From: Haloarchaeobius iranensis
GTDB taxonomy: Archaea; Halobacteriota; Halobacteria; Halobacteriales; Natrialbaceae
NCBI RefSeq assembly: GCF_900103505.1
Contig: NZ_FNIA01000006.1
Coordinates: 62,001 to 126,000 of the forward strand
Direction: 5' to 3'
Length of the DNA stretch: 64,000 nt
Shown here: in pieces, positions 2,263-56,989 of the stretch
Layout: each line of letters opens with the position of its first letter
Numbering within the stretch: position 1 is the first letter of the stretch
Made by a program: the position numbers and the translations under genes
Notes under the pieces: generated by a model
Told to the model about the DNA's origin: nothing
What the model saw: the letters and a program-made list of their open reading frames with translations, nothing else
Database searches by the model: none

Positions 2263-4017
2263 ATGTTCATCGCCGTCCGCGAGGAGGTCGCGGCCGCCAT
2301 CGAGGACGCCCTCGACGCGCTCGACCTTCCGACAGACGACCTCGGCATCGAAGAGCCGCCGGAAGACGTCGACGCCGTGCTGGCGTCGAGCGTCGCCTTC
2401 CGGCTGGCCGGCGAGGTCGGCGCACCGCCGCCGAAGGTGGCCGCCGACATCGCCGACGGGATCGACCCCGACACGTTCGAGTACGTCGGCGCGGTCACCA
2501 CGCAGGGCCCCTACGTCAACTTCCTGCCGAGCGAGGCGTACTTCGACGCGACGCTGTCGGCCGCACAGGACGAGGACTACGGCCACCTCCCCGACCGCGA
2601 CGAGTCGGTCGTCGTCGAGCACACCTCCGCGAACCCGACGGGACCCGTCCACGTCGGCCGTGCCCGCAACCCCATCGTCGGCGACGCTGTCGCGAACGTG
2701 CTCGACTTCGCCGGCTACGACGTCGAACGCCACTACTACGTCAACGACGCCGGCCGCCAGATGGCCGTGTTCACGTGGGCCTACGAGACGTTCGACGAAG
2801 CGGACCTCGGCTCGGAGCCTGCACGCGACCGCATCGAGTACGACCTCGTGCGCTACTACCGCAAGGGCAACGCGTTCCTCGAAGATGGCCCCGACGAGGA
2901 GGTCGAGGCAGCCGAGGCCGCGATACAGGGCATCATGCAGGGCCTCGAAGCCGGCGACGAGGATACCTTCGAACGCGTCAGCGAGGTCGTCGACCAGGTG
3001 CTCTCGGGGATGCAGGAGTGCCTCGCACGCCTCCCCGCCGAGTTCGACCGGTTCGTCAAGGAGAGCCAGTTCATGTTCGACGGCTCAACCGACGACCTGG
3101 TCGACCGGCTCAAGGAGCTCGACGAGGCGGTCTACGAGGAGGACGCCTGGCAGCTCGACCTGAGCGAGTACGGCATCGACAAGCAGCTGGTGTTCCTGCG
3201 CTCGGACGGCACCAGCCTCTACACGACCCGGGACCTCGCCCACCACGAGTGGAAGTTCGAGAACTACGACCGCGCGGTCACCGTCCTCGGCGAAGATCAC
3301 AAGCTCCAGGCCGACCAGCTCCAGCAGGCGCTCTCCCTGCTCGGCAACGACGTCGACCAGCTGGAGAACGTCATCTTCTCGTGGGTCAACCTCCCCGGCG
3401 GGCTCGGGATGTCCACCCGCGCGGGCACCGGCGTCGACCTCGACGACCTGCTCGACGAGGCCATCGACCGCGCCCGTGACGAGGTCGAGACCCGCATGGA
3501 GGAACGCATCCGCGACGACGACCTCACCGAAGCGGACGTCGAGCGCATCGCTCACCAGGTCGGCATCGGGGCCGTGCGCTACGACATCGTCTCCAAGCAG
3601 CCGACGAAGGCCATCACGTTCGAGTGGGACCAGGCGCTCGACTTCGAGGCCCAGTCCGCGCCGTACGTCCAGTACGTCCACGCGCGCTGCTGTGGTATCC
3701 TCGACGAGGTCGACTCCGTGCCGGAGGCGGTCGACGCCGGCGTCCTCGAACGCGAGGAGTCACGTGACCTGCTCCGTGTCATCGCGCGGTTCCCCGGCAT
3801 CATCGACGAGGCCGCGGACGACCTCGAGCCCCACACCGTCGCGACCTACACTCGCGAGTTCGCGGAGACGTTCAACGCCTTCTACCGGGAGTGTCAGGTG
3901 CTCGGTGCGGACGACGAGGCCGTCCGCGACGCCCGCATCGCGCTGGTCGCAGCGGCACGGCACACCATCGCGAACGCGCTCTCGACGCTGGGCGTAGCTG
4001 CGCCGCGCTCGATGTGA
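2263..4017 (+). CDS. argS: Arginyl-tRNA synthetase
   Basis: Class I synthetase charging tRNA-Arg, 584 residues, full length for the archaeal type. The HIGH-type signature is in [14 protein letters not shown] (around residue 128). The KMSKS position reads GLGMSTRAG. The C-terminal helical anticodon-binding (DALR) domain starts around residue 450 with [13 protein letters not shown]. The start is an ATG with a TTTACA box about 28 nt upstream, so the mRNA is probably nearly leaderless. A tiny membrane-protein gene on the other strand ends 1 nt after its stop. Confidence 0.97.
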
Positions 4018-55215: not shown

Positions 55216-55455
55216 TCAGAGCGCCTCGCCGACGAGGTGGACGAGCGCGAACGGGCTCGCGACGACCCCGACGAGGAGCGCGGCGTAGACAGTCAGGCCG
55301 ACGGCGAGGGCCAGACCGGGGACGAGCGTCAGCGCGACCGTCAGCAGCGCGACGACCCCGACGAGTGCGAGCAGGACGCGGCCGAGTCCCTGCGGGACGG
55401 TGGTGGTGGGAGTGCTGTTCTTCGGGCCGAGCGCGGTGGTGGTGTTCGTGCTCAT
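55216..55455 (-). CDS. Small membrane protein A, 79 aa (tandem paralogue)
   Basis: Serine/threonine-rich N-terminus, then VPQGLGRVLLALVG and two membrane helices (LLALVGVVALLTVALTLV and LAVGLTVYAALLVGVVASPFALVHLV). It is paralogous to the 77-residue protein 0.5 kb upstream, sharing VPQGLGR and the same helix spacing. Its promoter is a duplicated module with a candidate operator (55504-55527). Function unknown. Confidence 0.7.
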   Translation of the reverse strand: MSTNTTTALGPKNSTPTTTVPQGLGRVLLALVGVVALLTVALTLVPGLALAVGLTVYAALLVGVVASPFALVHLVGEAL

Positions 55456-55503
55456 TCAACTATACGTATGCCCGCCGACCCCATAAGTGTAATCTGCAAA
55501 ACA

Positions 55504-55527
55504 TTTCTGTAAGCTCGTGTACTGAAA
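55504..55527 (-). promoter_or_regulatory. Candidate operator, copy 1 (TTTCAGTA-N8-TACAGAAA)
   Basis: On the minus strand TTTCAGTA and TACAGAAA form an imperfect inverted repeat (7 of 8 positions) with an 8-nt spacer, 15 nt upstream of a TATA-like ACTTATGG (55488-55481). The surrounding 75 nt (55465-55539) closely match the region before the paralogue. Confidence 0.6.
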
Positions 55528-55716
55528 TTCGTTTCACCACTGGCCGAGCTACGTCTCGGGAGGTAGCGTGGAAGGAACTGGGTCGAGAGAGCCCGGGGGA
55601 ACGACGGCAGCCACTCGGCTGTACAGGGGTCTGCCGACTGGCGTGTGAACGTCAGCGAGGACGACATGGGACGGCCGGACCGACAGGGGTGGGATGACAG
55701 GGTCGTCGTCGAGTCG

Positions 55717-55950
55717 TCAGGCGGACGCGGCGACGGCATGGACGACGGCGACGGGCGCCAGGACTACCAGGGCCAGCAGGCCCGCCCAGAGGGCGAGGCC
55801 CGCGACCAACAGCAGGCCCGGGACGAAGCTGACGGCCAGCCCCGCACCGGTCAGCAGTGCGACGAGGGCGAACAGTGCGCGACCGAGACCCTGTGGGACG
55901 GACACGGTCGGACGGCTGTACTCGGTTCGAGTGTGGGTGGTCGTACTCAT
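55717..55950 (-). CDS. Small membrane protein B, 77 aa (tandem paralogue)
   Basis: N-terminus MSTTTHTRTEYSRPTVS, then VPQGLGRALFALVALLTGAG and two membrane helices ending VVLAPVAVVHAVAA. It has the same architecture as protein A and the same promoter module, 16 nt before its ATG. It lies 142 nt downstream of the zinc-finger HTH gene, on the same strand. Function unknown. Confidence 0.7.
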   Translation of the reverse strand: MSTTTHTRTEYSRPTVSVPQGLGRALFALVALLTGAGLAVSFVPGLLLVAGLALWAGLLALVVLAPVAVVHAVAASA

Positions 55951-56004
55951 CTGCTCTTATGTAGTCGTATGCACGCCGACCCCATAAGTGTCACCTGGAG
56001 GATA

Positions 56005-56028
56005 TTTCTGTAAACGGAGATACTGAAA
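56005..56028 (-). promoter_or_regulatory. Candidate operator, copy 2 (TTTCAGTA-N8-TACAGAAA)
   Basis: It has the same arms and spacer length as copy 1; the spacer bases differ. It lies 15 nt upstream of ACTTATGG (55989-55982), as in copy 1. The 75-nt module covers 55966-56040. Confidence 0.6.
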
Positions 56029-56092
56029 CTCTCTACACCAACTGCTGGCAGGTGAGCAAGGCGGCAGGACGGGGACGAGACGGCGGGACAGG

Positions 56093-56989
56093 TCAGTCGT
56101 CGGCCGGCACCGCGGCCGTGCGCTCGACCTCGGCGACGGCGAGGTCGTCGTCGATGGTGACCGCGAGGGAGTCGCCGCCGAGCTCGATGGTCACGGTGAC
56201 CGAGAACGGGTCCGTCGAGTGGACGGTCGTGCCGTGGTCGGAGACGCACCACGGGAGCTCCCAGTACGGCGTGCCGTTGAGGTCGACGCCGTGCTCGCGG
56301 TGGAAGTGGACCACGTCGGACTGGTCGAGCAACACCAGGCCGATGGCGGAACAGAGCGAGTGCCCACACTGCTGGCAGACGTGCTCGACGCGGACGTCCG
56401 AGCCGATGCAGCAGTCGCCCTCGCGCTCGACGTGGCTCGTCATCTTCCCACTGCACTCCGGACAGACGCCGTCCGCGGCGAGACAGTGGAGGTGCCGGAC
56501 GCGCTGGTCGAACGCGCGCATGACCTCGTCGCGGTCGCGGTCGGTCAGACCGCCCGGCGGGAACGGGTACTCGCCGTGGGGGTGGCCGCAGTCGGCGCAG
56601 TCGACCGCGATGCACTCGTCCTCGTACACGGCGACGAGGGACCCGCCGCAGGTGACGCAGTCGGCGTCCAGCTCGTGGGGGCCCCAGCGCGGGTTCTGGT
56701 TGAACTCGCCGGCGATGACCGCGCGGACGACCTTCTTCCCGGCGTAGCGCAGGTCGTAGCCGTCGTCGGTGTTCACGACGAACTGGTCGGTGAGCTGCTG
56801 GAGGTGGTAGTTGAACTGGGCGCTGTCGCGCATCTCGACGGTCTCTCGGAGGTCCGAGAACCGGACCGGTCGGTCGTCCGCCTGCCAGAGCGCCTCGAGG
56901 ATGGACAGCCGCGTCTCGTTGCCGACCACCGAGAACGCCTCCGCAGGCGCGACGCACGTCTCGCACTCGTTGATGTCCGGTTTGCTCAT
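56093..56989 (-). CDS. HTH regulator with zinc-finger array (DUF7351-like)
   Basis: 298 residues. The N-terminal ArsR-type winged helix spans about 15-80 (FSVVGNETRLSILEALWQAD...DSAQFNYHLQQLTDQFV). Three CxxC pairs follow: CVTC/CADC (near 110-130), CPECSG and CQQCGHSLC, consistent with one or two zinc sites. The C-terminal part is acidic and beta-rich. It is a putative sensor of metals or redox and the nearest regulator to the duplicated operators (inference). Confidence 0.8.
   Translation of the reverse strand: MSKPDINECETCVAPAEAFSVVGNETRLSILEALWQADDRPVRFSDLRETVEMRDSAQFNYHLQQLTDQFVVNTDDGYDLRYAGKKVVRAVIAGEFNQNPRWGPHELDADCVTCGGSLVAVYEDECIAVDCADCGHPHGEYPFPPGGLTDRDRDEVMRAFDQRVRHLHCLAADGVCPECSGKMTSHVEREGDCCIGSDVRVEHVCQQCGHSLCSAIGLVLLDQSDVVHFHREHGVDLNGTPYWELPWCVSDHGTTVHSTDPFSVTVTIELGGDSLAVTIDDDLAVAEVERTAAVPADD

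Follow-up and report, generated by a model that had tools for sequence, protein, structure and literature searches.

A conserved double palindrome and a neighbouring DUF7347–DUF7351 protein as a putative local module controlling duplicated mini membrane protein genes in Haloarchaeobius iranensis

Two paralogous genes encoding mini membrane proteins within a 64,000 nt stretch of the Haloarchaeobius iranensis genome (the whole of which is referred to here as the window) are each preceded by a conserved pair of palindromes, and lie beside a gene for a cysteine-rich winged-helix protein of the DUF7347–DUF7351 type. These elements appear to constitute a local one-component module, in which the DUF7347–DUF7351 protein would bind the double palindrome and control the mini gene, with its target gene duplicated; we put the probability of this reading at about 80 %. 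The features concerned are as follows.

55216..55455, minus strand: mini membrane protein 1, 79 aa, with a polar N-terminal tail and a helical hairpin (ORF; AlphaFold2)
55483..55488, minus strand: copy 1 TATA-like ACTTAT within GATTACACTTATG; the preceding conserved GATTA overlaps the expected BRE position
55494..55509, minus strand: copy 1 palindromic site 2, CAGAA-N6-TGCAG, immediately 5′ of the core promoter
55504..55527, minus strand: copy 1 of the operator of the initial annotation, TTTCAGTA-N8-TACAGAAA, equal to the inner part of the double palindrome
55522..55537, minus strand: copy 1 palindromic site 1, GTGAA-N6-TTCAG (aligned promoters)
55717..55950, minus strand: mini membrane protein 2, 77 aa, paralogue of mini protein 1 (ORF)
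55984..55989, minus strand: copy 2 TATA-like ACTTAT
55995..56010, minus strand: copy 2 palindromic site 2, CAGAA-N6-TCCAG (aligned promoters)
56005..56028, minus strand: copy 2 of the operator of the initial annotation, TTTCAGTA-N8-TACAGAAA (pattern search)
56023..56038, minus strand: copy 2 palindromic site 1, GTGTA-N6-TTCAG (aligned promoters)
56093..56989, minus strand: putative cognate regulator, with an ArsR-like winged helix, DUF7347 (residues 15–91), and DUF7351 (108–285) (Pfam, adjacency, co-occurrence)

According to the initial annotation, each mini gene was served by an operator made of two identical arms around a differing 8 nt spacer, placed at an equal distance from a TATA-like ACTTATGGGG. 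Both copies were indeed located on the minus strand with arms, spacers and distances to ACTTATGGGG as described, and 46 of 62 core positions are the same between the two. The exact pattern matches only twice in the entire 3.77 Mb genome, both times within the window, against 0 for a reversed-pattern control, and is thus non-random. When up to three mismatches are allowed, the window still holds the same two copies alone, compared with a mean of 0.14 after shuffling.

The arms are likewise kept in promoters of other haloarchaeal genera and families, in keeping with the selection that had been proposed to act upon them. Of 146 genomes of the order, 24 contain the 14-base pattern TTTCNGTA-N8-TACNGAAA, almost always singly (reversed controls, 0), and 23 of these 24 have a much longer promoter in common at that place; the other match (locus L005) is without this promoter and looks like chance. 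A profile of 70 positions, built from the surrounding promoter sequences, matches 246 of 392 Halobacteriales genomes, representing 78 of 95 genera, and the 20-base pattern TTTCAGTA-N8-TACAGAAA-N6-TCAG, searched among 84,980 bacterial and archaeal species, is found in 45 stretches, 44 of which are haloarchaeal. The likeness of the two window promoters might alternatively be no more than the trace of a recent duplication, a repeat or a mobile element with no regulatory meaning, and since the two copies are paralogous a duplication did occur in this genome. This explanation is, however, extremely improbable, being already contradicted by the spread of the profile and by an alignment of 112 promoters; the spacers are free whilst the arms are retained, the position ahead of the start codon is fixed, and the viral contigs searched contain no matches to the element. 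As a separate observation, a single contig of the halophilic archaeon J07HX64 (KE356579.1) carries at least five copies of a unit comprising the promoter and a mini gene of 64–65 aa (L099, L101, L112, L116 and L124).

The conserved unit spans approximately 55 bp, CTGAA-N6-TTCAG-N12-CAGAA-N6-TTCAG-ATTAYACTTAT, and the informative positions across the 112 aligned promoters are C[T/A]GAA, TTCAG, TA, TA, CAGAA, TTC[A/T]G, GATTA and TTAT. Judged from these sequences, it is better parsed as two tandem 16 bp palindromes, C[A/T]GAA-N6-TTC[A/T]G, set 28 bp apart from centre to centre with 12 bp between them, the second abutting the region of the expected BRE, ahead of the TATA-like ACTTAT. The 24-mer originally taken for a single dimer site would then consist of the right half of site 1 and the left half of site 2: it is real, and conserved in its arms, but straddles two sites of a longer unit that comprises the double palindrome and the core promoter. 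Its 8 nt spacer is almost free in the 112 promoters, and each position of the site 1 right half, TTCAG, is kept in 97–111 of them. Some half-sites are imperfect in the window copies: site 1 reads GTGAA/TTCAG in copy 1 and GTGTA/TTCAG in copy 2, and site 2 reads CAGAA/TGCAG and CAGAA/TCCAG, respectively. Base covariation between half-sites amounts to 0.09–0.17 bits of mutual information, which alone separates neither parse from the other; the double-palindrome parse is preferred because some promoters keep one palindrome only. Such single palindromes with a TATA box occur in genome G020 (locus L256) and in two groups within the window's own genome, and the pattern CWGAA-N6-TTCWG-N3-A-N3-TTAT is matched 38 times across 99 genomes, and its reversed control nowhere. 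At two further loci the element start alone (L240) or the first palindrome alone (L254) is left at the regulator stop codon, as if the remaining module had been lost.

The two mini proteins are approximately 43 % identical, and were thus rightly described as paralogues. AlphaFold2 predicts a hairpin of residues 22–44 and 46–78 for mini protein 1 (mean pLDDT 75), and a polar tail with a helical hairpin recurs in the target proteins across promoters. An ORF with a hydrophobic segment lies 3′ of 99 of 106 distinct promoters, with 95 of those starts placed 22–35 nt past the core, a spacing that would be expected of leaderless haloarchaeal transcripts. More strictly, an ATG 20–35 nt past the core that opens an ORF of 60–130 aa with at least two hydrophobic segments is present at 81 of the 106 promoters, versus 21 of 5000 random positions. 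Two further genomes of the genus encode orthologues of mini protein 1, and dN/dS of the mini gene between orthologues is 0.40–0.98 for these short sequences; the gene would appear to be under weak purifying selection at most. A BLAST search with mini protein 1 across 146 genomes of the order recovered the window's two copies and no others, and the family came to light through its promoter alone. The mini proteins diverge fast, whilst the promoter stays conserved across families. Searches of Pfam and NCBIfam with the window mini proteins gave nothing above any curated cut-off. For related mini proteins, Phage_holin_3_6 was considered and set aside, as its matches (4 of 24 members, best 7.4e-5) were judged weak and inconsistent. 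A sub-group of mini proteins (L032, L045, L082 and others) possesses a conserved C-terminal cysteine motif such as VCIPRTGVCIDA.

The candidate regulator matches PF24038 (E 7e-36; 122.8 bits versus a gathering cut-off of 27.6) and PF24042 (E 7e-68; 228.3 versus 31.2). Its C-terminal domain of approximately 180 residues harbours eight invariant cysteines, which likely form two zinc ribbons. The AlphaFold2 model has a mean pLDDT of 94.8, and over residues 13–98 it resembles SmtB (Z 10.4) and CadC (Z 10.9, rmsd 1.9 over 81 aligned residues). Comparable scores are obtained with MarR proteins and Rio2, and the model is therefore best read as placing the protein in the winged-helix fold class rather than in ArsR/SmtB exactly. 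It falls below the ArsR/SmtB cut-offs of NCBIfam HTH_metalloreg (24.6 bits versus 55) and Pfam HTH_20 (22 versus 27). A sequence search of the PDB produced no match, and fold matches of the full model covered the winged helix alone; in the library of papers searched, DUF7351 is named by none and the motif text is in no relevant one, and no description of the family's motif or targets was thus encountered. With its ArsR/SmtB-like winged helix and eight invariant cysteines the protein could be a metal or redox sensor, and the stress- or metal-responsive unit suggested in the initial annotation is a conjectural reading.

With regard to the coupling of regulator and promoter, the family of the window's HTH protein is the commonest neighbour among 40 loci (17 loci). 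Of 106 promoters, 51, drawn from 50 genomes of several families, are no more than 1 kb from the best regulator match of their genome (median gap 96 nt); these share the strand of the regulator without exception, and 46 are immediately 3′ of its gene. Of 197 genomes with a close regulator (E ≤ 1e-90), 174 carry a strong promoter (E ≤ 1e-5), versus 39 of 195 others (Fisher p 2e-45, uncorrected for phylogeny) and 0 of 53 genomes without any regulator match. Some genomes with a close regulator are without the promoter. Within one family (f1), the presence or absence of regulator and promoter agrees without exception in genera g3, g7, g59, g60 and g61. A natural loss is displayed by a genome of the same genus as the window (G267; L239, C6:22500-26500, from ~1928 on), in which a junction links the left part of operator 2 with the 3′ end of mini gene 1: the module is deleted, and the regulator is intact and 93 % identical to that of the window.

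DUF7351 genes number 3–17 per genome in the eight genomes counted. A scan of their flanks shows that many paralogues have a diverged element of this architecture nearby, in some cases in the promoter of an MFS transporter or another membrane protein; many paralogues, including most in the window's genome, are without a recognisable nearby element. At C24:12500-21500 of the window's genome (L295), three M29-aminopeptidase-like genes, similar to one another, come after a paralogue, and every one of them has a C[A/C]GAA-N6-TTCTG palindrome on its 5′ side; at C47:104000-110000 (L296), CAGAAGAGCCGTTCTG occupies positions 3597–3612 between a paralogue and a divergent ABC-transporter operon (genes at both loci being named from translations). 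The exact motif CWGAA-N6-TTCWG occurs six times in this genome, three of these at the C24 and C47 paralogue loci. Mapping 'element nearby' onto a tree of 56 regulators requires 11 changes, versus 15.4 for shuffled labels, and the coupling is therefore spread over the regulator family. An inspection by eye for operator changes that accompany changes in the recognition helix yielded too few cases to support such a link. Two side observations belong here: at L171, L170, L161, L164 and L163 a DUF7351 gene is directly followed by a diverged element and an MFS transporter gene, and on C47 of the window's genome (L262, 1959–1974) a CTGAA-N6-TTCAG ends 10 nt 5′ of a transcription factor B-like ORF, possibly by chance.

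One might suppose that the element is bound by another haloarchaeal factor of more global reach, with the DUF7351 gene merely a conserved neighbour, all the more so as around half of the compared promoters do not lie beside the genome's best-matching DUF7351 gene. Such a factor is nevertheless improbable, because the presence of promoter and regulator co-varies, also within genera, because related elements accompany different paralogues before unrelated genes, such that the common factor is the regulator family, and because the palindrome core matches the one used by the fold class to which the regulator belongs. The neighbouring HTH/zinc-ribbon protein (DUF7347–DUF7351) very probably regulates the mini genes, going by these genomic comparisons; adjacency, co-occurrence and paralogue-linked elements all agree with its nomination, in the initial annotation, as the candidate regulator.

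In the mechanism that we propose, dimers of the regulator would sit on the two tandem 16 bp palindromes just 5′ of BRE/TATA at each mini gene and, once bound, would turn on (less likely off) leaderless transcription of the small two-helix membrane protein. Activation is favoured on the ground that archaeal regulators usually activate from sites upstream of BRE/TATA, and repress from sites on or beyond it (TrmBL1, OxsR, TFB-RF1; PMC4706686, PMC9426492, PMC5937170); judged from the position of its sites alone, the protein is somewhat more probably an activator. The same regulator and sites could instead operate as a classical ArsR/SmtB repressor that blocks TFB/TBP at an overlapping BRE and is freed by ligand or oxidation, an appreciable if not a favoured possibility, as ArsR/SmtB proteins are mostly repressors (PMC8790569), and as palindrome 2 ends at the expected BRE, where an abutting or overlapping site would suit a repressor too. 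Repression sits less easily, however, with sites that lie upstream of the TATA-like box and never across the start, the arrangement typical of archaeal activators. The TATA-like ACTTAT also looks weak, which would presumably suit an activator-dependent promoter.

Viewed more broadly, an order-wide regulatory family with a common double-palindrome code might control fast-diverging membrane mini proteins, as in an undescribed envelope-stress, competition or defence system. This extension is speculative and rather unlikely; were it true, promoter and regulator would stay fixed whilst the effector sequence drifts beyond recognition. As for the local module, it attaches a DNA motif, a class of target genes and a likely regulator to the DUF7351 family, which is widespread in haloarchaea, multi-copy and found here described solely as a domain of unknown function. 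It also provides a case in which a promoter is retained from one family to another, whilst the protein under its control has no BLAST-detectable relatives in 146 genomes of the order. The predictions are directly testable in tractable haloarchaea.

Amongst known systems, the module resembles those of ArsR/SmtB proteins (SmtB, CadC, AzuR) in its winged-helix fold and in a half-palindrome equal to the TGAA-N6-TTCA core of the ArsR/SmtB 12-2-12 operator (PMC8790569 Table 2), which here reads CTGAA-N6-TTCAG; two operator copies per promoter are sometimes found there as well. It differs in the extra C-terminal domain with its eight cysteines, in the archaeal core promoter, in the two palindromes at a fixed 28 bp spacing with sites upstream of TATA, and in having unannotated mini membrane proteins as targets. 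TFB-RF1, TrmBL1 and the haloarchaeal OxsR similarly possess a site directly upstream of BRE/TATA, where their binding activates, but their own motifs differ, and TrmBL1 and OxsR are of the TrmB family; membership of the OxsR regulon was rejected on its motif (CGGnCGnGCG versus CWGAA-N6-TTCWG). CsmR of Haloferax volcanii, which regulates motility and cell shape, is likewise a small winged-helix regulator with a semi-palindrome beside the TATA box (PMC13286277), and its regulon too was discounted, the CsmR motif being TATCA-N4-TGATA, with a spacing of 4 versus 6 here. Finally, the haloarchaeal proteins of Pfam DUF7347 and DUF7351 are direct kin of the window regulator, which belongs to both families above their curated cut-offs.
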